A DNA stretch of 64,000 nucleotides, taken from NCBI RefSeq assembly GCF_032362555.1, contig NC_083506.1:6681501-6745500 (forward strand), read 5' to 3'. The notes beneath the pieces were generated by a model. It was given only the letters and a program-made list of their open reading frames with translations, was not told where the DNA came from and did no database searches. Origin of the DNA: Amyelois transitella. Taxonomy: Eukaryota; Arthropoda; Insecta; Lepidoptera; Pyralidae. A program made the translations under genes and the position numbers. Each line of letters begins with the position of its first letter. Positions within the stretch are counted from its first letter, which is position 1. Below, piece after piece: positions 2,468 to 62,011 of the stretch.

Positions 2468-5400
2468 ATGCAAGCCAAGAAGCGTTATATATTCCTTATT
2501 ATATCATTGATCTTTTTGGTTCTCTGCTATTTTTGTGGACATCCTCTGAAGTCAGAATTGGTTGAACACAGTCGTCGTGATCAGTTGCCTTCATTTGCAA
2601 CTTTAGATGAATTATCAGAAGCATCATCACAAATGCAGAGGCAGCCGCATCCTACAAAAAAATCATGTCGCATGGAAACTTGTTTTGATTTTTCAAAGTG
2701 TGGAAATGATCCTAAAATATATGTTTATCCTACTGAGGGTCCAGTGAGCACATCATACAGAAAAGTTTTATCAGTGATCAGGGAGTCACAGTATGCCACT
2801 AGGGATCCCAATCAGGCATGTTTATTCTTACCTGCCATAGACACTTTGGATGCTGATCCTTTATCACCAGAACATGTGCCTGATGTAGGTTCAAGATTGT
2901 CCCGTTTACCTTACTGGAAAAATGGTAAAAATCATCTTATTTTTAATTTGTATGCTGGGACTTGGCCAGATTATTCTGAGGAATCATTAGGATTTGATCC
3001 TGGTGAAGCAATTTTGGCCAGAGCAAGTGCTTCTGAGAATATATTCAGAGACGGCTTTGACATATCTTTGCCATTGTTTCACAAAGAGCATCCAGAAAAA
3101 GGAGGAGTACCTCCTGCTGCAACAGCTAATCCATTTCCAGCTCCACGCCGCCATTTATTAGCATTTAAAGGAAAGCGTTATGTGCATGGAATTGGTAGTG
3201 AAACAAGAAATTCCTTGTGGCATTTGCATGATGGCAATAATCTTATATTAGTTACCACATGTCGTCATGGAAAATCTTGGAAAGACTTAAGAGACGAGAG
3301 GTGTGATGAAGATAATCGTGAATATGATAAGTAATTACTCTTTTGTCCTAGTTTGAATTCGTTTTGACTTCCAAGATTCAACTTTTATTTTTTTTTATAT
3401 ATTGTGCCGTGTGAATTCCCGGCACTTTATAAAAGGACCACACAGACACAGACCACAGGATCCATATTTTTCCCATCGATGTCGTAAAATGTGACAATCG
3501 AAATGGCTAATAGATTTGGGATTCCTTTTGTACGCTATGGGCTACCTGTTACTATTTGAGTCTCGGTCACATCATTGTGCTATATATCTAAACGTGGCTT
3601 TTCAGAGTCTCAGAAGAATTAACTCTGTCTATGCAAGGGACATAGATGTGACTATATGTATCAATGTTTTTTATGTTTATAGATTTGACTATGAGCAGCT
3701 ACTGGCAAATTCTACATTTTGCCTGGTAGCACGCGGTCGCCGCCTCGGTTCCTACCGTTTTCTAGAAGCGTTAGCAGCTGGATGTGTGCCTGTATTACTG
3801 AGTAACGGCTGGCGACTTCCTTTTGATGAACGTATCGATTGGCGGCGTGCCGTTATATGGGCCGATGAGCGTCTATTATTGCAGGTACTTAATTATTTAT
3901 TTTATTTATTTATTTATTTATGTACACAAAATTATATACAGTACTTACTTTAAGAAAAATAAAAATCACATACTTTTGTGATTTGTAAATATTAATAATG
4001 GCGATTTTTGTACTGGTGACTGGGTAAATATAACTTTAGGTTTATTATTTTAGGTGCCAGAGCTAGTACGTTCAGTACCCCCTGAGCGCATACTCGCACT
4101 GCGTCAGCAAACGCAATTATTGTGGGAGCAGTATTTCTCGTCAATCGAAAAAATTGTGTTCACTACAGTAGAGGTAAGTATGATAGTGTCATAAAACTGA
4201 ATCTAAAATTGGACATGCAATAAAGGCACTCGTATAAAAAATGGAATTAACTTTTTCTATGGAGGTGATCATATTTTGGTCCGTTAAGATTGCTGATCTA
4301 CCAACTCTAGAGGTGAGGGATAGCTCCATTCCCATCGCAATGAGCCTCCTTCCCATTAAAAGTTACTCCATAAAAGGAACTATATAAACGAATTCAGTAA
4401 CGTAAAATCCTTGCAGATACTGCTCGAGCGTATCTTAGCACATCGAACGTCTCGGCAGCGGGAAGCTCTGATCTGGAACGGGTCGCCCGGCGCGCTGGGC
4501 ACGCTGGCCTCGTACGGGGACTCCCGCGCGCACTACCCCGCGGCCGCGCGCGCGCCGCCCGCGCCGCCCGCGCCCGCCGCGCCGCCCGCGCCGCTGCCCG
4601 CGCCCGCCGTCCCGCCCCCCGCGCCGCCGCCCTCGCCCGGCCGCTCCTACACGGCGCTGCTCTATGTGCAGGCCACGTCGCCCGCGCTGCATAAACTGCT
4701 CGCCAACATTGCGGGCAGCGAGTTCTGCGAAAAGGTATGCTTGCGTTTCATTGTAACATAAAAGATACAGAACTTTAATTTACAAAATTTTGTCAATCAA
4801 ATTCATATAGGTAATGAATTTAGTAATCAAGTAGCCTCATGAAAATGGAAGAGAACAGATCCTAATATAGCAAATCGTGCTTGTGTTCCTTGATCATAAG
4901 AACAGAAGATATAGAATACACAGAAGAAGTTTTGGGAGATCTATAGTTTTAGCATAGTATTACGCTCTTCATTCATAAATAGCCAGCCAAGACTAAAATA
5001 ATCATTTTTACCAATAGAAAATTTGTTTATTTCAGCAGTGTACAACTTAGTTGTGTTAGTTACATGGTCTTCTCAATATATAATAATTGAGCTTTTATGG
5101 AAGAGTGCAGTCAAGAGTAAGTGTAATCTGTAAGGTAAAATGTTTCCCAGGTGGTGCTAGTGTGGGACAGCGAGCGCGCGGCGCCGTCGTTGGTGTCCCT
5201 GGCGCGGGCGGCCGGAGACACGCGGGAACCGCTACCGGTGCTCGTTATCGATGCCACCACACATTACCCGGGGTATGTTGTGGATTAACACGAAACTTCA
5301 CATCAACTTAAGGCTAAAACCTTCTTCTGCAGATGACTGTACCTTCATAAAAGTTTTTGTTTGCTTAGAGGCTTCAACGGCCTTGGTATAAGCGTATTGT

Positions 5401-19200: not shown

Positions 19201-22200
19201 AGACTTATTATTTTAATTTTTAGTATTTTTTGTTATACCGGCTACAGAAATACATAATTTGTGAAAATTAATGACTGTCGTGTCCGCTGTTTCTTCTGAC
19301 ATGCAGATTATATTAAGGAAGCACAAGGCTATAAAACTTGGATTTCATATTTAAGATGATGTGCTATCAACCGGCATCTATCTGAGCCTCAATTCTTATA
19401 ACAAGCCATCCAACTGACCATGAGTTTCGAGTCTAGAGAGTTCCTCTGTCTAATTTAACTGAAATCACATTAAGAGGTTTTCTGTTGACTATTCATCAAC
19501 TAAGACGTCAGGCATGTAGCAATAGTTCAGGCCCGGCCGCTAAAAAGATCTTCCGCCAGACTAGGTGTTATGCCTGGGGAACGGCGGCTCCGACAATGTT
19601 GAGTCGGAGGTTGTATTTAAATATGGGTGAAATCTTTAATATCGCGATTCAGCAAATGCGCTGTATAAGGCTAGCGGCGTGTGACGTTTAAGATGTCGCC
19701 ATAGACTCTTCGCTACTATTAGTTGAGTGCGTCGTACTCTCACTGTGATTGGCTGATGGCGTGTGAAGTTAGTGAATTAAGTCGTCATAATTATAATATA
19801 CTTGAAAAATTTTACCTTGAGATGTTCCAACGAGCAAATATGATGCTCATAGATCATCGGCGAGCGAAAAGTGAGACGGCAGATGCGACAGAACGGCAAC
19901 AAGAAACGCTTCATGGCGCGGTGCGTGTCCGTCATGTTGTGTGCCTGCCGCGTCGTGCGGTGATTCAACCGGCAAATCTGCATGAGTGAATTGCTTATAG
20001 TTTGTTTTTTTTTTTATTAAATTCCAAATTTTTTATTCATTATCATTATTAGAGACATTTCAACATCACTTAATAATCGTCATATATTTTGGTTTCACAA
20101 CATTTGTTGATGTCAAATAAATTACTTAAAATAAAGTTTAGTGCAGGTTCCAAAGTGTCGGTGCAGAAGAAGCGGTAAAAAACTGCACTGCAACATTTTC
20201 TTCAATAACGTCCGTCAGCTTCTTAATTATCCAAACTTAGAATAGAATCGAGGACGAGAGAAAACATTGTTTTGATTTATACGGAATTTAAATAATAAAA
20301 TTCTCGTGTCACAATGCTCGTTCCCGTAACCCTCCGAAACGGCTTGACACATTCTCGTGAAATTTTGTGAGCTCACTATGAGAACTCAATATGAGTAGGT
20401 CTGAGAATCGGCCAACATCTATTTTTCATACCCCTTAGTGATAAGGGTGGTCCACCCTTAACATTTTTTTTTTATTTTTAGACTTTTTTTTTATTATATA
20501 GCATCAAAAATAACATACAACCCTAAATTTTTACCCTTTTATCAGCCCTATTTTTAATAGCCATTTAAGTAATTTATTCATTTTTCATAACCGGTCAATA
20601 ACTGATCAATCATCATTTAATAATTTTTATAAGGCAAACTTTTAATTATTACCTTTATATTAAATACTAGTATTCGCCTACGATTCCGGCGGCGTGAAAA
20701 GTACCCTATATCCTTTTCCGTACCACAAAATATCATGGAGATCGGTTCAATGGTTTTGACGTGAAAAGCGGACAAAAAAACAGAAAGTGTGTTTTTTGTC
20801 CGCTTTTCACGTCAAAACCATTTACATTTACGAGTATAATATTAGTATTAGATTATTATTATTGTAAAAATATATATTTTTTTAATGAACTGATACGAAA
20901 TTTGCTTGGATTTGGATAAGCGTTATCATTATACAGACAGACAAAATATATTTGTCTGAAATTATAGCGCAGTTGAACGTCGCGCACTCTTATAAAGACA
21001 ACTTATTCCGAATGTTTATACATACAAAATAATCTTCAAGAGGCACCATTTGAAGACAAGAGGTTAGTGTATCTTCCTTCTTGAAAATAAACTTACTGAC
21101 TGATGGTCATATCATCGCACAGTTAAACCGCTGGGTCTAGTGATTTTAAATTTGAAATTTAGGTCTCTTATGCAGTTTACGTGTCTATTTAAATATAGTT
21201 ACCAAGCAGAATGTGGTATGAGGTGCGAGATCGGCGGCCGAGCTGGCCTCGAGCTCGCGCTGAGCGCCGCGCTGCGCCACGCGCATGCGCAGCAGCTGCG
21301 CCTTGTGTCGGCGCGCCACGCTGCTCATCGCCGCGCGGTGCTTGCTCGACACTAAGTGCTTCGCGTAGCGCTACAGGACGTCAATAAAACAAATAAACAA
21401 AGCTTATCCAAATCTTCAAACCGACGAGCTTGCATGCAATGATACCTCGAGGAAAGAGGGGTGATTTTATGAATGTTTATAAATCTTCTTCCTCCTTCCT
21501 GGCGTTAATCTAGGTTACTTCGACACGGGAACGAGGAACCCGGGATAAACCCAAATTGCGATTTAATAAGAGGACAATTTTATATCACCATTATTGTCCA
21601 AACAACATACATACAAGATCAGTGGAGGGTAATATTTATTTAATTAAAACCACGTTGGTCTAGTACGAGGGCGACACTGAAAGTTTTTAGAACTGGCCAT
21701 TTGTTATTTATATAATAAAAAAATTAATTCTGATTTCAAAATTTCATTCAATTGTCATTATTTTTGCAATCTGGCGGCAAAGTGAAAATAATTCGTGCTC
21801 CTAAAATATATGAATTTAACGCGAGAAAATTTTCGTGCAATGATTTTTTATGACTTTCTGTGAAGTTAACACGACAAGAAAGTTACAATAGACTTCGATT
21901 GGCCTATTATAATGAAGCCCCATTTCGTGCCACTGTTTACAACTGGTTCAATGAATTTAAGCGTTGTCGATCTAATCTCACCGATGATCTGCGTGAGCGA
22001 CGGCCTTCTACGGCGACCACTGAAGAAAACATCAGTGTTGTGCGGCGTATGATAGAGGCTGACAAAAGAGTTACCTATCAGCAGATTCGGACAAGTCTAG
22101 GCATTGGTATGAGCCAAATCCATAAAATCCTCCACGAACATTTAGAGGTCAGGAAGCTTTGTGCCCGGTGGATACCCCATAATTTGACTGAGGCCCAAAA

Positions 22201-25200
22201 ACTCCGTCGTGTTAATTGGTGCCGTGATAAGATTGAAAAATTTAACGGAGGTGACTCAAATGCCGTATTCGACATACATCTTACGGGTGACGAAAGCTGG
22301 ATTTGTTGTTATGATCCAGAAACTAAAAGGCAGTCGGCCCAGTGGGTGTTTCCGTTCGAGGAGTTGCCCACAAAAGTGAAGAGAGGTCGAATGTCTTTGA
22401 AAAAGTTCGGGAGAAACGACCTCGCAGCAGAATCCTCGTTCATCACGACAAGGCCTCGGCGAACCATCGACTTTTTAGAGATATCAAATGTGGAATCACT
22501 GGGTCACCCGCCATAGGTACAGCCCCAACCTAGCACCTTGTGTTTTCTATTTATTCCCCAAAATAAAAGAAAAACTTCGCGGTTAACGTTTTGTGAACGC
22601 TGAGGAAGCAGTCGCTGCGTTTGATAGGGCCGTCGAAGAGACACCTAAGGAAGAGTGGGCAAGGTGCTTCTCCCAATGGTTCCATCGGATGCAGCGATGT
22701 ATTGACGAAAAGGGACACTATTTTGAAAAGATATAATAAAACTAATATTATAGTATAATGCTCAGTTTTTGATTTTCTAAAAACTTTCAGTTTGACCCAC
22801 GTAGTGAAGAAAAGTGTCAGCTGCTTAATTCCTTTTACATATTGTCTTTTAACTTTTGAAACAATTTTTCTACAGTTAATGTTAGGCGAGTTTTACACGA
22901 GTCTTATGGGGACAAACAATTTAAAATACATACCGCAAATGTAACACACTTTTCCTTGCAATGCACGCAAGAAAGTTGTATATAAGAGCGAGGGCGCGGC
23001 GGGGCGGCGGCTTCGGAGGCGGTGTCGGCCTCCTTGTCCGTCTCGTCGCCAGCCTCTTCCGGCTCTCCTTCAGATCCATCCACATCCGGCTATAAGCAAA
23101 CGAGCGAACCTTACTAGACACTTAATACCTATAATCACGTCTATCTCTTAAGTGTCTTGACAGCCAAGTTCAGCTGTATGGCTAAATGTTAGAATTGTGT
23201 CAAAAAGTGATAGAATATATGATATAAAATATATAGTGATTATGTGACTAGCAACCCGACCTGGCTTCGCACAAGTATTTTTAGTATAAGTTTTGCGAAG
23301 ATTGTCAATACTACTTAAGTTTTCATTTGTGGTAGGTATACAAAGAAACACTAGCCTAACCTAACTATATAATTTAAAAAATTACAATGAAAATTATATA
23401 AACAAAATAAAACTTCCAAGTCTTTCAAACAATTAATTAATCTACGAAATACAAAATTACAAGGGATCTACCGAATTAGAGTTAATATTCAGAACACGAT
23501 GATATTGTGAACAAATGCATGCATCCAATAGAAATTGGAAACATCTATCCCCAAACTACTCTCACAACAAATATTTCGTCCGTCGTGTGCGTAATTGCAC
23601 GGGTTGGGCATAGTATAGAATACAGCAGAGGGCAGGTAGGCGCGGTGCGTGGTCGGTTATAGTTGGCGATAACTTCGCCAGGCCCGGAAATTTCCATTTT
23701 GCGATAGCTTATTAGATATTATTTTTTTCACGTAGTGCAATGCAATGTTGGTCTTCATTAAATGTATAACGTATTTAATTTAAAAAGGATTACTAAAACT
23801 AAAATCGTCATAATATCATCAGTTTGAACAAAACCTAAACTTATTATAAACTAAAACCTTCCTCAGTAATCACTCTACCTGTTGTTGAAACTGTATGAAA
23901 AATCGTCCAGTATTATTCAAGTTTATCGCGAACAGACAGATATACAAACGAGGCACTTTGTTTTATAATATGTAGTGATGAAGTGATGGAAGCTTACTAT
24001 GTGTGATTTATAGGATTACTTTTGTAAAACATCAACAACGTCGCAGGGTTAGATAGTCAAAACGTAACAAAATAATCTATTTATTGAAAGAATACATTTG
24101 CGACTGTACATTCTCGCGCGAGTGCCCTCGCCATGTGTTCGGGACAGCCAGTGGAAAACAGCAAAGTGTAGTGTAGGTATGTATAGCGAGAATAGACCAA
24201 AATTGTTTAGTTAAATGAACAGCCGAATAATAATTAACATTTTATAGTGCATAATTCATAGTTTAATTGTAATGTTTAATCTTTGTTAATCTTGCTATCA
24301 TAATTTAGCATGCAGTTTTAGGTGGGCATAACAGAGGTGGTGGATGCTTACACAAATAGTCAAAAGAATGGTCGATAAGGCAACTTTTATATACGTTGAT
24401 AAATGAATCTACATCCTTATCCCTACAAATATTATAAATAGGTAAATAACTGTCTGTTATGTTTTCACGCATAAACCACTGAATCTATTTTGATGAAATT
24501 TGCTACAGAGAGTTGAGGAAAAGCAATGGCAACTTTTTATTCAATTACAGAGCTTTGATGGTCAATAGAATTAGTAGCAGAACGCAAATGTACAGGGATG
24601 CATTACTCTCCACTCCCGAGGGAATGCAGGCAGGCCCTTTGACTCGCGTACAAAAGCCGACACGAGAGCGAGAGCGAAAGCACGCGACCCGAGGATAAGC
24701 GAATGTATCCTGTACATTCCCGTCCTCGCCATGTCTCCTGGGCCCTCGCCAAGACTGAACAGGCGAAAAATAAATGCGGCGGGCGGGATGATGATTCCTT
24801 TTATAACATCTTGCTATATTGCTTGCTTTTACTATAATATAATCTTTATGACGTTTTGATTGTTCTTTGTTGCAAGTTACGATAAATTGTAAATACCTCG
24901 CTCGGGAGCTACCCGTGCGAAGCCTGGGTGGGTAGCGACGTTTCAAATAACTCCTTGTTACTAGTCCACCGTGAAATCAAGTTTACATCAATACAATATG
25001 GTAAATACAATTCAAAATGACATCCCTTTTATTTCAGTTTTAATTTTTTATATAGCTACAAAATAATTTGATTAATTGTGCCTAAAGATATCCAAAAAAA
25101 AGTTGCAGACACACTACATGCTTTGGTTATTAATTTAATTTGAAATACATACCTTTGGCGATTTGCTTTTGGGTTCCTTTTTCTCCTCAGTGACTTCTTC

Positions 25201-32342: not shown

Positions 32343-32654
32343 AAAATATATATTTACTAGCTTTTGCGCGCGAAAGTCCGAAAAAAATAAAAGTATCAAA
32401 ATCCACGATCTCGACAACTCTGTACTTTACTTGATCTTGATACTAGAAAAATAATTTATTTTTCAGACATTTATTTACATGTTTAGTTTTAATTTCTTGT
32501 TGTAGTATTGGTCTTTAATAAAGCGTGTGACGTAGTTTTTGAGGGTTTCTTAAATGTGAAAATAATGACGTTTAATTTAAATAAAAATAGGCTCAAACGG
32601 CTCAGAAGCATGGGTAAAAGGATGCAGTTGTTTTAAATGTCACCCTGTATAAAC
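32343..32654 (+). repeat. Dispersed repeat (family M) holding the empty MULE target site
   Basis: Its reverse complement is found at 48240-48582 plus 50826-50865, where it is split by the MULE transposon. Here the target is unbroken: AGTATCAAAATCCACGATC, with CAAAAT at 32397-32402. Shared landmarks are TTTTCAGACATTTATTTACA, TGAGGGTTTCTTAAATGTG and GGCTCAAACGGCTCAGAAGC. Confidence 0.85.
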
Positions 32655-35469: not shown

Positions 35470-36845
35470 CAAGACTGAAAAGGGTCACAGCTGGACTGCA
35501 AAAATCATCGTGGTATAAGCCTGCTTAGCGTCGTCGGCAAATTGTATGCTAAGGTATTGATTAATAGAGTCAGGAATGAAACTGATGACAAAATATGGGA
35601 TGCTCAAGCGGGATTTCGAAAGGGAATGGGATGTACTGATCAGGTCTTTTCCTTGCGGTGCATAGCCGAAAAGTTTTTGGCCAAGAGTCAAAAAGTCTAT
35701 TGCACATTCGTAGATCTGGAAAAAGCCTATGACAGAGTTGAGAGGAATGAATTGTAGTCAGCACTTTCTATGCATGGGGTGAGCAGTCTCTTAATACGAG
35801 CACTGAAATCCTTATATGAGGATTCGAGTGCTTGTGTCAGGATAAACGGAGCGCACACTGAGTGGTTTAAGATTGAGAAAGGCGTTAGGCAAGGATGTGT
35901 TGCGTCAACGTGGCTGTTCAACCTATTTATGGATAGTTGTTTGACAGATTTGAAAGAGTGAAAGTGGATTAAGGATGAATGAGTTACTCGTCAAATGTCT
36001 GCTCTATGCCGACGATCAGGTTATACTGGCGTCATCAGCGGAAGAGTTACAGGAGATGGTAAACTGTATGCATGAAGCTTTAAGAGATAGGAATGAAAGT
36101 GAACGTAAGTAAAACTAAAACACTGGTTTTTGAAATGGAGAAAGAAATGACAGCATGTAATATTTTGATTGGAGGAGAAAAAGTTGAGCAAGTGAAAGAG
36201 TTTGTATATCTAGGATCAAAGTTTACATCAGATGGCAAGTATGATAGTGATATTGAAAGGAGAGTGAACGCGTGGAACATGGTGAATGGAGCTTTGCATG
36301 CCTTTATGAGCAGTCAGAAACTATCCAAAAAGGCTCGACTGGCTGTGCACAGGGGCGTGTTGGTCCCGACATTAATGTATGGGAGTGAAAGTTGGGTATG
36401 GCAAAAGAAGCATGAAAGCAGAATAGATGCAGTGGAAATGAGAGCGTTAAGGAGTATGATGGGTGTGAAATTGAGTGACAGGATAAGGAACAGCGTGATA
36501 AGGGAATGTTGTGATGTGAAAGATGTAGTTACAGGAATAGAAAAGGGTATGTTAAGATGGTTCGGTCATGTGGAGAGGATGAATGAAAGCAGGTTGACTA
36601 AGCAGATATACAAGGAGAGTGTGGAGGGAAAGTTCGGAGTGGGAAGACCTAGACGAACGTATCTTTATATATTAATTAAGGACGTCCTGGTAAAGGGTCA
36701 GTTCAAAAGTACCCGAAACCGCCGAGATGGTATGAAGAGTTATGAATGTGGATGAATCGAAAGAAGTGTGCAGAGATCGTGGCAAGTGGAAAGAGGTAGT
36801 CTCTGCCTGCCCCTCCGGGAAAGAGGCGTGATTTTATGTATGTAT
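35470..36845 (+). mobile_element. Dead non-LTR retrotransposon (family D)
   Basis: A 5'-truncated LINE with at least four frame breaks. Readable blocks in order: AQAGFRKGMGCTDQVFSLRC, YCTFVDLEKAYDRVER (palm A), GVRQGCVASTWLFNLFMD (palm B), LLYADDQVIL (palm C, YADD present), VNVSKTKTLVFE, VKEFVYLGSKFTSDGKYD, MRALRSMMGVKLSDRIRN and WFGHVERMNESRLTKQIYKE. The tail GKWKEVVSACPSGKEA and its stop end at about 36830 in a shifted frame, followed by GTATGTATG. I place it loosely with RTE/R4-like LINEs. Confidence 0.85.
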
Positions 36846-37457: not shown

Positions 37458-40046
<2,589 letters not shown>

Positions 40047-48239: not shown

Positions 48240-48582
48240 GGTGACATTTGAAAGTTTAAAACAACTGCATCCTTTTAAACATAGACTATACCCATGCTTC
48301 TGAGCCGTTTGAGCCTATTTTTATTTAAATTAAACGACATCATTTTCACATTTAAAAAACCCTCAAAAACACGCTTTATTAAAGAACAATACTACATAAA
48401 GAAATTAAAATTAAACATGTAAATAAATGTCTGAAAATAAATTATTTTTCTAGTATCAAGATTAAGTACAGAGTTGTCAAGATCGCTCAGCTGAACAAAT
48501 TGTGTCGTTGACCTCTGAATCTTACGCATCGCTTTTCCGCGCCGGCCGGGATGATATGTCGTATTTAGGATCGTGGATTTTG
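48240..48582 (-). repeat. Family M repeat, left part, target of the MULE
   Basis: Reverse complement of 32383-32654. It is interrupted at 48582 by the MULE; the other side resumes at 50826 with ATTTTGATACTTTTTATTTT. Confidence 0.85.
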
Positions 48583-50825
48583 CCCCTTTAGTCGCAGTAT
48601 ATGATATTCGCAAAACATCATAAGAGCAAGACATTATAATCTCAAAATAGCACATTCTCAAAATATGATATTCTCAAAATATCATAATAGCTAGATATCA
48701 TATTCGCGAATCATAATGTTCCCAATACATCATATTTGCAAAAAAGCTAATACTCAGGAAATCATATTCAATCAAATATCATATTCGCATTTCACGATAT
48801 TTTTGATCCAAAAGTAACATCAGCTACAATAAAACCAAGACTGCGTTTAATTGATTCTTGTCCTAAAACGTGGTACTGGCTGGCCATTTATTTTCCTTTA
48901 TTATTTATGACTAATAATGACAGGAAAAACGTCAACTTTGATTAAACATATTATTTATTGCCTCAGAGGGTAAAATACTTTGCTTTAATTAGTGTTTCTC
49001 TGCTTAGGCATAAATATGGAACAATTCAAATGTAATAATAATGAAATAAAGTTCATCAAAAGTCAAAAAAATAAACCGGTGTTACTCTATCAGGGATACA
49101 GGTACAATTTCTATTTAAAAAACAAATCTGGGACGACAAACTGGCGGTGTTCTAAGCAACAAGAATGCAGAACGTCAATAACTCTCAACGCCAACAATGA
49201 AATTATCAGACCCGCTAAGCATGTCTGTGATTCTCCCAATTTTACAAGCAACCTAATAGATTTGATTGTTGATGACTGTAAGAATGAGGTGTGCACCAAT
49301 TTTACTTCTGCGCAAAAGATTTTTGAGAACAATATTTTAAAACACGATTTCAAGGGTCAAGAACATGAAATACCAATATTTGCGTCAAAAAAAGATACTC
49401 TGTACAGAGCTAGAAATAAATATTTAAATATGGATAACTTGAAAAAAGACTCATTTAACATAAGACTTCCAGATAACTTAGTAGGAGATTTCTATTTATA
49501 CGACGTACATGAATCATTTGGCCGTATTATATTTTTTTCAATGTTGACACGTGCAGAGATACGTGAATATTTAAAAACGGTATCAAGTATTTACGGAGAC
49601 GGTACGTTTAAGATTGTACCTAAGCCGTATTATCAACTATACAGCTTACATGTCGACGTGGCACGTACTGAAGAAACAATTAATTTTATTCCAATAATTT
49701 TTGCTTTACTTCCCAACAAACAGCAAAAAACGTACGAGTGCTTTTTTTCTATACTTAAACTACAATTCGGATTGAACTTAAATATGTACAAGTGCGATTA
49801 CGAACTGCCTGTTGTTAAAGCTGTAAACCAGGTATTCCCAAATGCAACCGTCAAAGGCTGCTATTATCACTTTTGCAACGCTGTTTTCAAAAAAAGCAAA
49901 GAATTCGATCTCTCTGCAGAAAATCGAAAAATTGTGCAATATTGTTCATTGTTACCACTGCTACCATCAAATTTGATACCGGAGACATTCTACACGATTA
50001 TGGAAATGTCATCACGAGACCGAGACATTAATAAATTTCTTGATTATTTTAATAATCAGTGGATGAAAAAGATAAGCAGTTCTATATTAAGCTGTTATGA
50101 TCAAAAAAACAGAACTACAAATGGAGTCGAAGGATGGCATCGCCGAATTAATAGTAAAATTCCTAAAAAGCCAACATTGTATCAATTTATAGCATTAATG
50201 AAAAAAGAAGCAAAAATACAAAAAGTAAAACTAGAAAGAAACAATTTACATTTTGCTGACAAGAAACGAAATAAAAAAACGATAGACAAAAATAAAAAAA
50301 TTAAAAGTATCGTCAATGATTGTGTACTTAAAACAATAAGTCTTCCGGTATGTCTAAAACGGTTAAGTGTTTTACAGAAATATTAGTAGTAAATATATTT
50401 TGAATATAATTAATAATAATAAGAATATTTTTTATTTTGTTTTTTGTAATAAGAATAAATAATTTGTTTTGTAATACCTAACAAATAATACTATGTTTCG
50501 AAATAATATATCTACCATTTCCAGCACTTCCAGCGGTCACCTCCTCCGCTCTTTTTTGTCTAGCTACATAAATTTTTGTCATATATCGTAATATATCAAT
50601 TACATATGCCTTACTGTACTTAGAATATAATGTTTTGAGCTTATCATATTTTGCGAGTGTGGTATATTGCGAAAATCATATTTCGTGAATGTGTTTTTAC
50701 GAGAATCTTATGTCTAGCTATTATGATATTTTGAGAATATCATATTTTGAGAATGTGCTATTTTGAGATTATAATGTCTTGCTCTTATGATGTTTTGCGA
50801 ATATCATATACTGCGACTAAAGGGG
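48583..50825 (+). mobile_element. Intact MULE (Mutator-like) DNA transposon, 2,243 bp
   Basis: Bounded by perfect 113-bp terminal inverted repeats (48583-48695 and 50713-50825) that start CCCCTTTAGTCGCAGTATAT. The terminal regions contain many copies of ATGATATT/ATATCAT-type words, probably transposase binding sites. ATTTTG flanks both sides (48577-48582 and 50826-50831), and the undisturbed target with a single ATTTTG is at 32397-32402 (reverse). A single uninterrupted transposase gene lies inside. Identical long TIRs and an open gene suggest recent movement. The 6-bp duplication is shorter than the 8-10 bp usual for Mutator. Confidence 0.92.
49016..50386 (+). CDS. FLYWCH/MULE transposase, complete
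   Basis: Open frame of 456 aa from the first ATG. Residues about 6-62 form a FLYWCH-type zinc finger (LLYQGYRYNFYLKN, then NWRCSKQQECRTSI and a terminal H-x-C). The MULE catalytic domain covers about 190-300: YGDGTFK supplies the first Asp, KCDYELPVVKAVNQVF the second and GCYYHFCNAVFKK is the conserved C/H block. NGVEGWHRRIN near residue 375 gives the Glu. The Lys-rich C-terminus may be a nuclear signal. No frameshift or stop is seen, so it could be active. It is the only gene in the element. Confidence 0.9.
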   Translation: MEQFKCNNNEIKFIKSQKNKPVLLYQGYRYNFYLKNKSGTTNWRCSKQQECRTSITLNANNEIIRPAKHVCDSPNFTSNLIDLIVDDCKNEVCTNFTSAQKIFENNILKHDFKGQEHEIPIFASKKDTLYRARNKYLNMDNLKKDSFNIRLPDNLVGDFYLYDVHESFGRIIFFSMLTRAEIREYLKTVSSIYGDGTFKIVPKPYYQLYSLHVDVARTEETINFIPIIFALLPNKQQKTYECFFSILKLQFGLNLNMYKCDYELPVVKAVNQVFPNATVKGCYYHFCNAVFKKSKEFDLSAENRKIVQYCSLLPLLPSNLIPETFYTIMEMSSRDRDINKFLDYFNNQWMKKISSSILSCYDQKNRTTNGVEGWHRRINSKIPKKPTLYQFIALMKKEAKIQKVKLERNNLHFADKKRNKKTIDKNKKIKSIVNDCVLKTISLPVCLKRLSVLQKY

Positions 50826-51010
50826 ATTTTGATACTTTTTATTTTTTTTCGTACTTTCTGAAATATGAACAGATATTTTTCTTTTAATGTTTTTAAATAT
50901 CCTTTAGATGAGTAAAACACTTACATATTTGTTTTGACAGTCAGACAGACATCTTGACAGTCTTCATTTCAAATAAAAAGTACAAGAATTATAATATGGG
51001 AAAGAAACTG

Positions 51011-54529: not shown

Positions 54530-55939
54530 TCACTGAAGCACTAGGCCAATTTTATTTGGTGTCATAGTTGGACATCTCCAATTATACAAATAGTATTGCA
54601 AGTTTCCATCACCAATACCAAATTTTAATGGTTCTAAAAATTCTTTGTTATCCATCAAATCCAAGGCATTAAATACATCAAATCCTGAATTTTTTGCAGT
54701 AATCAAAGCATCAAGCATTAATTCAGTCCAAGCAGTTTTGGTAGAGACATTGTAAAATGAATATGCAGCCTTGAGGGTTTTGTGAGTTGGGTGATATACA
54801 ACTGTTGATGGTAATGTATAGTAACTCACAAAATCAGTGATTGAACCATCAAGAGCTTCAACAACAAAGCTATCAATAATACCAGATTGGGGAATAAACC
54901 AATGTTTGAAACCTTCCTCTGAAAAAACAGGTGCCAAATCAAACTTTTTCATGTACTCATTTAATAATTTTACCACTTTTTCACAATCCTGAACTTCCAT
55001 CTTTCGGAATCCTGGAGTCTTGGGCACATCAGGGAGTTTATACAATTTGAGAGTTCTTTGCATAGTCATGTTTCTGGATAAGTGACTAAATTTGATGTCA
55101 ATCAGTTTCTTTGGATTAAGAGATCTGTGCCAATAACGACATGTTGCCACTGGCTTAGGTAGCACAATACCCGCAGTATATACTCCTTGAAATATTCCAG
55201 TTAAATTAACTCTCCGAGTAATTTCCCTGATGAGCACTGGAGCTACTCTCTTGGAGCGAAGCTTTTTATGAACACATAAGAAATTGATTTCTACTACAGT
55301 TTGTACATGGTCATATATTCTCAATTCAGCAGGGGTAGCAGATATAAATCCAACCAGTCTTCCTGATTTCACAACACGCACTCCACAGTGCCATTCCATT
55401 CTCCATCCAGGAGGCTGGAGAGCCCACTTGAGAAAATCTGTTTGGTAGTCAAATCGAAACATACAATCATCATCTTCAACATAATTCTCATTGAGCAATG
55501 TATAAAGTTCTTTGAGTACAAGGGGTTCATTTAGGTTAAGAGTGTCCCATCGGAAACCATCAGGCAAAGTATATGGTTCAGCCCTAATATCTTCAGGAGC
55601 TTTTGGTGGTTCTATAGGTTCGTTGGAAACAATTTTTTCATCCATTTTCGGTACAGGTTGGGTTGACCAAAATTGATAAGATTTGTGTAAAGCTTCCTCC
55701 GTAGTCTTCGCTGGTTTTTGTTGAAAATTTAAAACTTCCATAGCCATCTTCAAATCCTTTAGGGATATATTCTGATGAACGTCACCTGCATTAGAAGTTA
55801 AGCTATCGGAAGTTCCAGAAACCCCGTGGTCGCCGTCGCCACCGCTGCGCTTTTTCTTGTTTTTGCCCTTTTTCTTTCCATGTTTGTCCTCGTTATCCCT
55901 TTGATATTCATTAGATTGGGCCGTGTTACTTTCCTCCAT
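54530..55939 (-). CDS. Nmt: Glycylpeptide N-tetradecanoyltransferase (N-myristoyltransferase)
   Basis: Transfers myristate from myristoyl-CoA to the N-terminal glycine of proteins such as Src kinases and Arf GTPases; cytosolic and ribosome-associated. One uninterrupted 469-aa frame. The N-terminus is disordered with a Lys-rich ribosome-targeting tract ([13 protein letters not shown]). Two GNAT-like halves follow. Family signatures are [40 protein letters not shown] (residues about 185-260), [16 protein letters not shown] and the C-terminal GLVLQ whose carboxylate acts in catalysis. Upstream the sequence TTTTTTTATAG could be the acceptor of a 5' UTR intron. Downstream, AATAAA on the minus strand lies at 54435-54440. 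No introns in the coding region, but no poly(A) tract or direct repeats that would mark it as a retrocopy. Confidence 0.96.
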
Positions 55940-56039
55940 TGAAAATATATACTATAAAAAAATTTCAGTGGTGAATAGAAACCCAAAAAATCCCGACTAA
56001 AATTACCAACTAGGTAAGACACTGACTGATTATTTCATT

Positions 56040-56945: not shown

Positions 56946-57600
56946 TAAATCGATCAAACACCCATCTTAGAAAGAATATAACAACACAGCATTTTGGGCT
57001 CCAGTCAAAAAGTCCTTGTGCACCGTAGACAAAGTATAGGTATAGACAACTAGTCAGCGTGTCGCTGATAGGGACAGGGTTCCGGTTCCGGTTGTCAAAT
57101 AGATAACACGTATTGTTCGTAGTCCTAGTTAATATTAAGGAAATTTAATAATAACTTGCCTGTGGTGTGTTGGAACAATGAAAATTATAACCTCTTCAGC
57201 CAGTCTCACGGTATGAAAATATAAACATTAGTAAATATACCACTAAATTATCACTAGAAGAAAAATAAATACTGAACGGTGAAGTGATCACTACTAAATT
57301 TAAAAATTTTACTGGAATTCTAATAACATTGACCAATAAGAACATTAATACAAAGCAACAACAGTACATATTCAATCAAATCCAATCTACCCACAAAATA
57401 AATATGTGACATATTATATATTTTTTTTGACATTGACATCTATTTGACATCTATATTGACATTGATTGATTGACTAATTGACAGACATAAGAAATAAATA
57501 CATACCGTCAGATACATTGAATTAAGGAAGTTGACAGTGACATATTGTTGACATTATAGTAATATTAAATAAAAGTATTCCCATTCATACAGCCAGCAAA

Positions 57601-59133
57601 ATGTCAATGACACAAAAAAATATTTGTGCAAAATGCCGCAAAATAATTAAAGACAAATATTTTCTCACATGTGCTGTATGCAAACGCAGTTATGATCTTG
57701 CATGCACAAATAATGAAAAGCTGTTTAATCTAATGGACAAAGAGAGAAAATTAAAGTGGTCCTGCAATAAATGTACATATGAGAAAAAACAACTTAAAAC
57801 TAATACAAGTACTCCAAAATCGCAGCAAATGGAGTCGTCAAACACATTAGCTACGCCGTCGACGAGTAATCAAGTTGTACCTAAACAACGACAGGTGATA
57901 CCTGAAGCAAACTCCAAACAACTTAACTCATCAATTGATAACGTCACAAAGAGAACTCAAAACATTCCCCTTCATAACTCCTTCAGCCCCCTATCGGAAG
58001 TAGAGTCATTTGAAAGCGGTGTATTGAGAAACAATACGTTAAATAGAAGCTGCCCGGAACCATCTGTAAATAATTACGTCGAGATGGAAGAGATGAAAAT
58101 AAAAATTGTGGAACTAGAAAGAAAGCTTCAAGCGGCCGATAGCGAAATAGAAAAACTATTATTAGAAAACAGTGCACTTAAGAAGAAAATAACAGGCAAC
58201 GAGACAAAAATTAAAAATCTAGAACAAATATGTAAATCACCAAAATCACAAAAAAAGAAGAAGAACACAAGCTTACTTAATTTATCAAACATAAATAAAA
58301 CACAAATTGAAGAATCAATCATCATAATACCTGAAAACCCTAGTCATATATTGAGGGAAGATAATGAACAAAGCAAGGATGAACGAATTCCAATTGTAAA
58401 GGTACCTCAAGTCAAAAAAGAGACACATCACCATAACATATTTATATTTGGCGGGGAACAATGCGTCGGTCTAGGATCCGAAATTACGCAGGCTAGGATG
58501 AATTCTCCGTACGAAAAATATAAAGTATCGTCTCTAACAAAGCCAGGAGCAACCTGTGAAGAAATTTTAAAAGCCACAACGACACTGGAATCAACTGCCA
58601 ATGATGTAATAATTATTAACGTTGGTGATTGTGATCAAAATCCAACTAAGCTTTGTGTAGAATTAGGCTACTTTCTAAAACGATACTCTAAACAAACTGT
58701 CATTGTAATAGGAGTTCGAAGCAATGTCCATCTTAGTGTAAGAACATTAAATGACAGAATAGCTATGTATTGTAAGCAATTTGATAAATGTTCATTTATT
58801 AATCCATTTAACATACACTACAACAATAGAAACTTTATATCCAAATTGACATACAAAATTAATATAATTATTGACACTATTTACTATAATAAAAATTATC
58901 TTTCTATTAAAAATCATAAAACTAATAATATTAAAAATACAGTAAATATGCAAGTTCCACATAAAAAAGGAACCATTAAATACTACTTTAATACAATTAA
59001 AAAAAGGAACGAGTCATTAAATTACTTAAAAGTCCCTAGGCAAACTGTGCAAAAACGTGTTACTGACTATTTTACTAAAATTGACAAGCCTCGGGTAAAT
59101 AGTAGTAATTTGTTTTTTCGTGACGACAAATGA
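57601..59133 (+). CDS. CR1-group LINE ORF1 protein
   Basis: Intact 510-aa frame. The N-terminal 60 residues hold a PHD-like zinc module (ICAKCRKII, FLTCAVCKRSYDLAC, WSCNKCTYEKK; four Cys pairs). A low-complexity linker follows, then a coiled coil at about 160-210 (VELERKLQAADSEIEKLLLE). At about 280-400 is a domain resembling the SGNH esterase fold of CR1/L2-type ORF1 proteins (HNIFIFGGEQCVGLGSE, DVIIINVGDCD, QTVIVIGVRSNVH); the nucleophile GDS motif appears replaced by GGEQ, so the enzyme activity may be lost. The basic C-terminus probably binds RNA. ORF2 overlaps its end in another frame. Confidence 0.85.
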   Translation: MSMTQKNICAKCRKIIKDKYFLTCAVCKRSYDLACTNNEKLFNLMDKERKLKWSCNKCTYEKKQLKTNTSTPKSQQMESSNTLATPSTSNQVVPKQRQVIPEANSKQLNSSIDNVTKRTQNIPLHNSFSPLSEVESFESGVLRNNTLNRSCPEPSVNNYVEMEEMKIKIVELERKLQAADSEIEKLLLENSALKKKITGNETKIKNLEQICKSPKSQKKKKNTSLLNLSNINKTQIEESIIIIPENPSHILREDNEQSKDERIPIVKVPQVKKETHHHNIFIFGGEQCVGLGSEITQARMNSPYEKYKVSSLTKPGATCEEILKATTTLESTANDVIIINVGDCDQNPTKLCVELGYFLKRYSKQTVIVIGVRSNVHLSVRTLNDRIAMYCKQFDKCSFINPFNIHYNNRNFISKLTYKINIIIDTIYYNKNYLSIKNHKTNNIKNTVNMQVPHKKGTIKYYFNTIKKRNESLNYLKVPRQTVQKRVTDYFTKIDKPRVNSSNLFFRDDK

Positions 59134-62011
59134 GAAATATTACAATAACCCTACGACTAATGAGAAATGTCAAAATAATTATGCAATATTTCACCAAAAT
59201 ATAGCAGGTTTAATAAATAAATCGGAATTAATTACACTTACGCTAAAGGAACTAGAAGACGAAGGAAATAATTTTGATATACTTTGTTTCAGTGAAACGT
59301 TCATAAGGTCTGGTAGTGAAGGGAATTTTCATATCGCTGGTTATCGCTTAGTATCATCATACTCAAGAACCCATCAAAAAAGAGGTGGTGTTTGCATTTT
59401 ATGTAAGCAAAATATGCAAGCTGAAAAATATGACCTTGTAAACGAATTTGCAGAGGACAATATCTTTGAGTGTTGTTCCATAATAATAAAACCAATCAAA
59501 TGTATTATAGTCTGTTTGTATAGAATTCCCCAATCATCTAATCTAGTTCGATTTTATGAAAAGTTAAACTGTCTTCTAAATAAGTTAAAACATAAAAAAG
59601 GATACAAAATTATTCTAACAGGTGATTTAAATATAGACCTACTTTGTGAAAATGAATCCAGAAAACTGCAAAACATAATATCGAATTATAATTACAATTT
59701 TCACATTAAATTGCCCACACGCAAGAAAACTTGTATTGACCACATCATAAGTAATTTTTTTGTAACTCAAAGTGGCACTTATGCTCTATATCTTTCCGAT
59801 CATGATACTGCTCAATTCATTAAATTTACAGAACAAAATAGCATACAGAAACCGTCACATTGGTTCGTCAAGAAAAGAGACTATAGCTATGAGAACATAG
59901 AAAAGTTTCGTGAATGTTTGAGTAGTTTAACATGGAGTGATGTCTTAAATGAAAATGACACTAACACTGCATTTAATTATTTTCATGAGACTTTCAAACT
60001 TTTCTATGACCTTTGTTTTCCAATAATTAGAATAAAGGTTAGGGCACAGAAAAGAGGTGTAACAAACTGGCTCACCAAAGGTTTACGAAAATCGACTATA
60101 ACAAAACGACATCTACGTTTTGACTATTATAAAAACTCCAATGGTACAAATAAAAGGAAGTACCAAAATTATAATAAACTTCTAAAAAGATGTATACATC
60201 AGTCTCAAAAAAACATTAACACAAAGCATCTGACATTATCAAAAAATAAATGTAAAGCCACTTGGGAGATAATAAAAAATAACACAGTTCGGGACTCTTC
60301 TAACATTGACAATTTAAAAATTAATAATGACATGATGAACAATCCAATAGAAATTTCGAATGCGTTTAATAGACACTTTATTAATCTGCCAAATAATAAT
60401 AGCAAAAATAATACATATAATCATGATCTCAAATCAAATCACGCTAGCCTTTTCTTGACACCTGTAGACACATACGAAATAATTAAAATAATAATGTCGT
60501 TAAAATTGACTAACTCTTGTGGTTATGATGATATACAAACTAGCATATTAAAAGCTTGTGCTCATGAGATTGCACAAGTTCTGACGTATTTAATAAATCT
60601 ATCCTTCAGTACCGGTGTATTTCCCGATAAACTTAAGGTGTCAAAGGTAAAGCCCTTATACAAAAAAGGTCCCCGAGATTGTGTCGATAATTATCGACCG
60701 ACTGCTCTTATACCCATAATAGCTAAAATATTTGAAAAAGCTTTCCTCACACGTCTTACTCTATTTCTTGATAAGTTTAAAATAATCAAACCAGAACAGA
60801 ATGCATTTCAAAGAGGAAAATCCACGACACTTGCCACCTTCCATCTCATAAATAAAATTCTGGAATCGATGGACAAACGTGTACCAGTCACGACTGTCTT
60901 TTTTGATATGAGTAAGGCGTTTGATTTTGTAAAGCACGCGTTATTGCTACATAAATGCGAAATGTATGGTGTTCGAGGTTTGGCAAATAAGTGGGTCAAG
61001 AGTTATTTGTGTAACAGGACACAATATGTCGAAATTACAAAAATGAATGACAGTAATGAAATAGAACAATATAACTCTACGAAGGAACCAAATTTAGTAG
61101 GAGTGCCGCAAGGTAGTATCCTGGGCCCAATGTTATTTTTATTATATATAAATGACTTGCCAAATATAACAAATTATGACTGCACACTATTTGCTGATGA
61201 CATTTCTGTAATTATACCATGTAATAACAATCTAACTTATAATGATGAAATTAATAAAACAATTGACAAAATAATAAAATGGCTTAATAATAACAATCTA
61301 CAAATAAATTTAACAAAGACTACTTATATGCAATTTATAAATAAGAATGGTAAAAAACATAATTTAAATATTTCCCACAATAATATATTAATCAAAGAAT
61401 CAAACCAAACTATGTTCTTAGGAATTACATTAGATGACAAGTGTACGTGGGAAGGACATGTTGCCAAAATTTGTAAAAAGATTAACTCTTTTTCGTACGC
61501 TTTGTGGAAACTTACAAAAGTGAGCAGCAAAGCAGTAGCAATACAAGCATATCATGGTTATGTGGGATCCGTTCTTCGATATGGCATTCTTATATGGGGA
61601 AATTCCTGTCATATGGAACGTGCTCTTATAGCTCAAAAAGCGTGTATCAGAGCAATATGCAACGTAGACCCTCTGACATCATGCAAACCTCTATTTAAGG
61701 AATTAAAAATATTGACTGTTCCATGCCTATATATATTCGAATTATGTGTATTTGTCAAAAATAACCCTAACTTATTTAAAAAACGAAATGACACTAGCAA
61801 ATATAGCTGTAGACATCCTAATAGACTAAATCTACTCATCTCAACCACAAAAGTAAAAAGCAGAAATAGCTATCAAATGGCTGTCAAAATATACAACGGC
61901 CTCAATGAGGATATAAAGTCGCTATCTTTGAATGCCTTTAAAACTAAATTAAAACTGTGGCTTATCGAAAAATCGTTTTATACTGTTGACGAATATTTCG
62001 ATAAAAAATAA
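59120..62011 (+). CDS. CR1-group LINE ORF2: endonuclease and reverse transcriptase
   Basis: About 963 aa. APE-type endonuclease in the first ~240 residues: HQNIAGL, CFSETF, TGDLNIDLL and LSDHD carry the metal-binding and catalytic residues. Reverse transcriptase spans about 480-790: VDNYRPTALIPIIAKIFEKA, FQRGKSTTLATFH, FFDMSKAFDFVKHALL, GVPQGSILGPMLFLLYINDL, LFADDISVI (FADD catalytic box), INLTKTTYMQF and FLGITLDDKCTWEGH. All catalytic motifs are present. The frame opens at 59099 after a stop, but the first in-frame ATG codes for about residue 98 (after SETF), so the start is not an ordinary ATG: it overlaps the end of ORF1 and may need re-initiation or a frameshift near TTTTTTCG (59113-59120). 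Confidence 0.88.
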   Translation: MTTNEKYYNNPTTNEKCQNNYAIFHQNIAGLINKSELITLTLKELEDEGNNFDILCFSETFIRSGSEGNFHIAGYRLVSSYSRTHQKRGGVCILCKQNMQAEKYDLVNEFAEDNIFECCSIIIKPIKCIIVCLYRIPQSSNLVRFYEKLNCLLNKLKHKKGYKIILTGDLNIDLLCENESRKLQNIISNYNYNFHIKLPTRKKTCIDHIISNFFVTQSGTYALYLSDHDTAQFIKFTEQNSIQKPSHWFVKKRDYSYENIEKFRECLSSLTWSDVLNENDTNTAFNYFHETFKLFYDLCFPIIRIKVRAQKRGVTNWLTKGLRKSTITKRHLRFDYYKNSNGTNKRKYQNYNKLLKRCIHQSQKNINTKHLTLSKNKCKATWEIIKNNTVRDSSNIDNLKINNDMMNNPIEISNAFNRHFINLPNNNSKNNTYNHDLKSNHASLFLTPVDTYEIIKIIMSLKLTNSCGYDDIQTSILKACAHEIAQVLTYLINLSFSTGVFPDKLKVSKVKPLYKKGPRDCVDNYRPTALIPIIAKIFEKAFLTRLTLFLDKFKIIKPEQNAFQRGKSTTLATFHLINKILESMDKRVPVTTVFFDMSKAFDFVKHALLLHKCEMYGVRGLANKWVKSYLCNRTQYVEITKMNDSNEIEQYNSTKEPNLVGVPQGSILGPMLFLLYINDLPNITNYDCTLFADDISVIIPCNNNLTYNDEINKTIDKIIKWLNNNNLQINLTKTTYMQFINKNGKKHNLNISHNNILIKESNQTMFLGITLDDKCTWEGHVAKICKKINSFSYALWKLTKVSSKAVAIQAYHGYVGSVLRYGILIWGNSCHMERALIAQKACIRAICNVDPLTSCKPLFKELKILTVPCLYIFELCVFVKNNPNLFKKRNDTSKYSCRHPNRLNLLISTTKVKSRNSYQMAVKIYNGLNEDIKSLSLNAFKTKLKLWLIEKSFYTVDEYFDKK

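Follow-up and report, generated by a model that had tools for sequence, protein, structure and literature searches.

A very young Phantom/Muta-type MULE in a lepidopteran genome, probably still mobile

Introduction

Muta1 of Aedes aegypti is an active MULE that moves in yeast, and its authors thought that the cut falls outside the terminal inverted repeat (TIR) (PMC5225508). Muta5, described in the same report, has identical copies and yet showed no movement in yeast, so identity alone can mislead on activity (PMC5225508). The transposon that we describe here resembles Muta1 in several respects. Both encode a FLYWCH/MULE-type transposase, with a target site duplication (TSD) of 8 or 9 bp in the case of Muta1; both possess TIRs of more than 100 bp built of short repeats, which in Muta1 measure 12 bp plus a spacer of 3–4 bp, or ~15–16 bp in all; and both occur in several identical copies (seven in Muta1) with signs of cutting outside the TIR (PMC5225508). 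Muta1 differs in that it measures 3,198 bp and encodes 504 aa in two exons, as opposed to 2,239 bp and a single open reading frame (ORF) of 456 aa here, and in its more than 300 derivatives, compared with few seen here; in our element the period is 16 bp and every perfect TSD seen is 8 bp long (PMC5225508). Of 12 Aedes families with long TIRs, 10 likewise contain tandem repeats in them.

Tm1 of root-knot nematodes, a Mutator/Foldback element of the Phantom subclass, likewise combines FLYWCH and MULE domains in its transposase (496 aa), with a FLYWCH motif that is without its final histidine as it is here, and bears composite TIRs of tandem repeats (PMC3169594). It is set apart by a repeat of 13–15 bp (mostly 14), a TSD of mostly 9 bp and a variable TIR length (PMC3169594). 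The Phantom elements (group 20) are similar to ours in their arthropod hosts and in TSDs of 8–10 bp where these are given; their TIRs span 18–613 bp or are absent, and FLYWCH is present in some members (PMC6446971).

An arthropod survey counted 322 MULE types in 222 of 4,268 species, with a single type in 164 of the 222 positive species, at most nine in any, and six in the richest lepidopteran that it names (PMC13359780). The species analyzed here may be one of those 222. Recently active MULEs were reported from several Lepidoptera (PMC13359780). The complete lepidopteran MULEs of that survey measure 2,698–9,206 bp, whereas our element (family A) measures 2,239 bp and a second family of the same genome, E, measures 2,160 bp; because both are shorter, A and E are probably not among the survey elements (PMC13359780).

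Results

Boundaries and inverted ends

We analyzed a window of 64,000 bp (C2:6681501-6745500) within a searched genome of 327 Mb in 33 contigs. Contig 33 measures 15,205 bp, and its first 200 bases, judged by eye, comprise tRNA-Met, tRNA-Ile and a reversed tRNA-Gln ahead of a coding stretch; ARAGORN recognized only the tRNA-Gln, and Rfam gave no hit at the start of this mitochondrial contig. The Met-Ile-Gln order is the derived arrangement of ditrysian Lepidoptera, which points to a moth or butterfly. The window holds a complete, intact DNA transposon, with the following features in window coordinates.

48585..50823, plus strand: whole transposon by family-wide boundaries, 2,239 bp
48575..48582, no strand: left TSD copy, 8 bp, GGATTTTG, by junction comparison
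48583..48584, no strand: extra CC between TSD and element, absent from the element family and the host repeat
48585..48695, plus strand: left terminal inverted repeat, perfect over 111 bp
48599..48790, plus strand: left subterminal array with 16-bp period, its register holding ~11 of 12 marked units
49016..50386, plus strand: transposase ORF, 456 aa, with FLYWCH finger (residues 13-68) and MULE/DDE domain
50618..50809, minus strand: right subterminal array, ~12 units of 16 bp in register
50713..50823, minus strand: right terminal inverted repeat, perfect over 111 bp
50824..50831, no strand: right TSD copy, 8 bp, GGATTTTG, by junction comparison
32343..32654, minus strand: empty-site paralogue of host repeat M, uninterrupted, itself without ~88 bp left of the site

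The limits of the element are those common to 15 two-ended copies at different places, which start with CCTTTAGTCGC and end with GCGACTAAAGG, while the sequence outside differs from copy to copy. Inside these limits the inverted ends are perfect over 111 bp, or over 113 bp if counted from CCCC. The identical 113-bp ends of the preliminary description are confirmed by its own bounds: when the window copy is read alone, its apparent ends are CCCCTTTAG...CTAAAGGGG, identical over 113 bases and flanked left and right by ATTTTG. The part common to the copies, however, opens with CCTTTAG and not with CCCCTTTAG. Long TIRs are common, although not universal, among MULEs, and those of this element extend over 111 bp. 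Hairpin folding of the left end is unexceptional, with a z score of -1.08 and 27 of 200 shuffles folding as well or better.

By eye, the transposon sits between exons resembling those of a poly(A)-binding protein (37458-39401, minus strand) and a frame resembling an N-myristoyltransferase (54530-55951, minus strand). Also judged by eye, the window contains two long frames of 530 and 970 aa (57541-62011) that resemble the endonuclease/reverse transcriptase frames of a non-LTR retrotransposon, as well as a 220-aa frame (21854-22516) resembling a mariner-type transposase.

Target site duplication and empty sites

Perfect TSDs of 8 bp lie directly outside the ends in 11 of the 15 two-ended copies. 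The TSD of the window copy is the 8-bp GGATTTTG, flush with the element at the right end and two bases off it at the left. Both the 8 bp of those 11 copies and the 8 bp plus CC of the window copy fall within the 8–11 bp typical of the MULE superfamily. Three two-ended copies (L012, L014 and L024) have no recognizable TSD, for which simple insertion does not account. An 86-bp direct repeat (99%) is present in both flanks of L012, and these three loci may be rearrangements or aberrant insertions.

Among the 14 other two-ended copies, a CC like that of the window copy is found outside the left end only in L009, where it forms part of that copy's TSD, GACAAACC. A genome search with the left flank gave 40 places, the best 40 of 1,000 candidates, comprising the window's own and 39 others at 91–94% identity; all 39 of these matches end at base 143 of 145, just before the CC. 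The empty site is uninterrupted in each of the 11 host-repeat paralogues that we fetched (L030-L040, L029 being the window's own), and in these 11 the sequence GTGGATTTTG is followed directly by ATAC, or in one case by ATTC. Because the host matches stop before the CC and the element copies start after it, the CC at 48583-48584 is foreign to the host repeat and the element family alike. Together with the TSD it mimics a symmetrical CCCC...GGGG end, and the 8-bp duplication of the window copy was hidden because of these two stray bases.

An uninterrupted copy of the host repeat (family M) near 32343-32654 had been reported in the preliminary description, and we confirm it; with the intact ends and the transposase, it bears out the claim of an intact MULE with its own empty site. 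This copy is missing ~88 bp immediately to the left of the site, between two GATCG words, a stretch through which 39 of the 40 listed M matches (again the best 40 of 1,000 candidates) run. Its junction, GTGGATTTTGATAC, is sound despite the gap. Within the window, at ~36561-36789, there is likewise an uninterrupted paralogue of the L021 insertion site, which has seven of the eight TSD bases in common with it and differs from it by a few bases and by a 3-base gap just left of the TSD bases.

Subterminal array

A 16-bp period with the consensus ATATCATATTCGCAAA starts at base 15 of each end and comprises ~11 units at the left and ~12 at the right. Self-identity at a lag of 16 is 0.58 and 0.62 at the two ends, values matched by none of 500 dinucleotide shuffles at any lag from 6 to 40. 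The many ATGATATT-type subterminal words noticed earlier are indeed present and prove to be units of this phased array. Tandem repeats in the TIR are a mark of Phantom/Muta elements, and the array is consistent with a dense series of putative transposase-binding sites.

Transposase

The transposase is encoded in a single open frame of 456 codons (49016-50386, plus strand). In Pfam, the MULE domain (PF10551) scores 35 bits against a cut-off of 27.6 (E 2e-8), and FLYWCH (PF04500), the N-terminal finger of the Phantom/Muta type, scores 38.1 bits against 23.6 (E 1.7e-9). The zinc ligands of the finger are presumed to be C45, C51, H69 and C71, that is, C2HC rather than C2H2. Alignment identifies D195, D261 and E372 as the catalytic residues, with a GCxxH motif (C282/H285) between D261 and E372; the two aspartates and the GCxxH residues are alike in all nine aligned MULE transposases of the genome, as is the glutamate in the eight that reach it. 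ORF, Pfam and alignment agree with the original reading of an open 456-aa FLYWCH/MULE transposase that retains its D, D and E. The spacing of 66 residues between the first and second aspartates lies within the 60–76 reported for arthropod MULEs, but the raw spacing of 111 residues from the second aspartate to the glutamate, against 120–135 aligned columns in most arthropod MULE clades, speaks against the assignment (PMC13359780). A search of solved structures with the transposase gave one chance match (E 0.85), a PHROGs search gave nothing significant (best E 0.073), and a single-sequence structure model was useless at a pLDDT of 35.5.

Copies and age of the family

A genome search with the left end yielded 73 matches, with 40 of 55 candidates scored. 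We examined 21 places, namely 20 that were fetched and the window itself, and recognized two-ended copies by the exact 25-base end. These places comprise 15 two-ended copies, two truncated copies (L019 and L020), two end fragments (L025 and L026) and two diverged end-like sequences (L027 and L028; 82%). Further diverged end-like matches, at 83–88%, lie outside the 21 places at C24:3812361, C3:10921187 and C4:8933041. Thirteen of the 15 two-ended copies are full-length with the 456-aa frame, a count upheld by searches with the protein and with the ORF DNA. The other two, L021 and L023, are deletion derivatives (1,057 and 861 bp), and few non-autonomous copies were seen in family A. The truncated L020 (C12:10709911-10713500) is a one-ended remnant in which the first 192 bp of the element are followed by GTCGCAGT, a sequence that also occurs in the element's own end; it is perhaps an abortive repair product.

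Four sequences account for the 13 full-length copies. Four copies have the 2,239-bp form, L018 differs from it by one substitution, seven are shortened to 2,214 bp by a 25-bp deletion, and L016 has a 140-bp tandem duplication. Across all 13, there is one substitution in 28,782 aligned bases in addition to two length changes. When the ORF was used as a DNA query, 16 places were found (16 of 16 candidates scored), 15 of them at 100% (rounded), including one on C12 in which the frame is broken, and the last a 38-bp piece at 97%; no diverged DNA copy of the transposase was found among these 16. This near-identity indicates that the family multiplied very recently. Taking the Heliconius mutation rate, which is reportedly 2.9e-9 per site per generation, the burst would be ~12,000 generations old, with a Poisson range of ~300 to 67,000.

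Other MULE families of the genome

A protein search of the genome gave 94 matches, with 93 of 202 candidates scored. Beside family A, we found several multi-copy families with intact transposases 27–38% identical to that of A, and we sampled one to four copies each of B, B0, C, D, E, H, I, J and K. In a Pfam scan of eight families (all but C), the MULE cut-off was passed by all eight and the FLYWCH cut-off by six; FLYWCH is absent from the D and H reading frames scanned. Duplications of 8 bp were found by script in four of four copies of B and two of two of E, and by eye in both copies of C and the one copy of J.

Searches of the whole genome with transposase DNA cover families A, B, E, I and K. 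Every place found was near-identical and full-length for B and for I (five of five in each); E has 14 full-length copies among 21 places, all at 100% (rounded), and K has five near-identical full-length copies among seven places, of which the remaining two are 111-bp pieces at 71–72%. Over the whole element, the fetched copies are 99.7–99.97% identical in B, 99.86% in E and 99.75% in K, so these families are somewhat older than A or gained their differences outside the gene. The two copies compared in each of C and D are 99.97% identical in both cases, and B0 is represented by one copy, whose ends have diverged (86.6%). Because A, B, E, I and K are represented only by near-identical full-length copies, several recent MULE invasions of one genome are suggested. 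The richest lepidopteran named in the arthropod survey, with six MULE types, is a moth.

At L063, a reverse-transcriptase-like ORF of 391 aa (3427-4602, by eye) starts ~150 bp beyond the 3,275 bp common to the D loci L063 and L064 (99.97%), and this D copy may have inserted into a retrotransposon or next to one. Contig C32 (12.4 Mb), which at a guess is perhaps a sex chromosome, contains many degraded or fragmentary MULE transposase matches.

The 16-bp spacing across families

We tested periodicity in nine families (A, B, B0, C, E, H, I, J and K), leaving out D, for which no ends could be located in the loci examined. In four of the nine (A, B, B0 and I), 16 bp is the strongest period at both ends and is matched by none of 500 shuffles. 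Other periods, also unmatched by shuffles, are present in E (38) and H (39 and 13). C, E, H and J thus lack the 16-bp period, C and J showing no period at all. K is equivocal: its right end has a z score of 3.1, with 23 of 500 shuffles reaching its maximum, and at the left end 238 of 500 do so. The sequence of the repeat unit differs between A, B, B0 and I. Because A, B and B0 are closer relatives (35–40% protein identity, compared with 24–26% for the distant I), up to three of the four 16-bp families could owe the period to common descent.

A distance of 16 bp corresponds to about one and a half helical turns. We infer that the pitch reflects transposase molecules seated side by side on the end. 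Similar pitches have been published for Muta1 (12 + 3–4 bp) and Muta5 (15 bp) (PMC5225508) and for Tm1 (13–15 bp) (PMC3169594), and we do not put forward the strict 16-bp pitch as unreported.

Discussion

We consider it highly probable that the element is an autonomous Phantom/Muta-type MULE of the Mutator superfamily, very recently multiplied in this lepidopteran genome and probably still mobile. Its intact ends and transposase, the 13 near-identical copies, the 8-bp TSDs and the empty paralogous sites were all read directly from the DNA, and the assignment to Phantom rests on architecture.

The preliminary description had regarded the element as a MULE relative with a duplication of 6 bp, or at most 7 bp, and on account of this short TSD as a distinct lineage. 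The window copy alone gives that impression, with ATTTTG flanking apparently perfect CCCC...GGGG ends, and ATTTTG is indeed present on both sides; it is, however, only a part of the 8-bp GGATTTTG duplication. The part common to the copies starts with CCTTTAG, the overlap in the window copy is 8 bp, and neither host nor element accounts for the CC. Perfect 8-bp TSDs accompany these ends in 11 of the 15 two-ended copies and a 6-bp TSD in none of them. Aligning insertions with their empty sites, a check that the preliminary description had itself recommended, gives a duplication length of 8 bp and not 6. The 6-bp reading is refuted because other copies with the same ends show 8-bp TSDs, which was that description's own test, and a separate lineage has very little probability left to it. 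The claim was wrong, and the element, well preserved and very young, is an ordinary representative of a known group. Membership in a different superfamily is just as hard to sustain. P-superfamily/Galileo and hAT elements can generate TSDs of ~8 bp, and the TIRs of Galileo are long and internally repetitive, so an 8-bp TSD and long repetitive ends are features in common with our element. A Pfam scan up to E 10, however, returned just two weak transposase models besides FLYWCH and MULE, with no THAP, BED or hAT model, which leaves the element outside the P type, and other MULE transposases align with its protein over the DGTF, CDYE, GCYYH and VEGWH stretches. We therefore find a P/Galileo-like or hAT element in place of a MULE very unlikely.

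Copies that are identical to the base could also arise in assembly, by the placing of one copy many times. The chance of this is negligible, because the TSDs differ between copies and so do the 400-bp flanks of the 15 copies, apart from a few common repeats; the four sequence classes, with the 25-bp deletion in seven of 13 copies and the 140-bp duplication in one, point the same way. More serious is the view that the burst came from a resident family, inherited vertically with rapid turnover and lately re-amplified, and not from a recent horizontal arrival. A few places 82–88% identical to the end hint at older kin, and deletion derivatives are present. Against residence, no diverged transposase copy turned up in the DNA search, in which all 16 candidates were scored. 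Elsewhere in the genome, the most similar transposases reach 37–38% protein identity, and the pattern recurs in families B, E, I and K; we regard a resident origin as possible but doubtful. Scans of viral contigs with the protein or with 25 bases of the end found no virus-borne relative, a conceivable vehicle of transfer, nor did a scan with a nine-transposase alignment, a weak one in which a single short peptide pattern was used.

For the recently multiplied, autonomous MULE that we favor, we infer binding, cutting and present-day mobility as follows. The transposase would bind the 16-bp-phased subterminal array, probably via its FLYWCH finger, and would pair the two ends. Its D-D-E RNase H-like center would then cut the DNA at the CCTTTAG ends or immediately beyond them, and strand transfer staggered by 8 bp would create the TSD, in a cut-and-paste reaction. 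On this view the window copy would owe its CC to the donor flank, two bases of which would have travelled with the element after a cut 2 bp outside the left end; such a cut matches the one outside the TIR suggested for Muta1 on other grounds (PMC5225508). L009 (C16:777347), an identical copy with CC at the same side, could be the donor, although the match, at ~1 in 16 per copy, is not significant.

A single insertion can mislead on TSD length; here, two stray bases made 8 bp look like 6 and suggested a new lineage. Of greater value than the original claim is the genome-wide context, with its several young families and their shared 16-bp pitch in some cases. Read jointly, these would have the ends of FLYWCH MULEs read at a fixed 16-bp pitch while the unit drifts with each transposase, and at least five diverged lineages invading this moth almost simultaneously by horizontal transfer, each near-identical and without older full-length kin in the genome. 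We offer this joint reading tentatively and think it unlikely to hold in full. In the element itself we have a good candidate for a compact animal MULE that has a single ORF and is probably active; few such MULEs have been shown to move. The 16-bp phasing, common to families with diverged transposases, makes it testable how transposases read long repetitive ends, and a genome that holds several families of similar youth allows a test of whether MULEs reach moths in waves.
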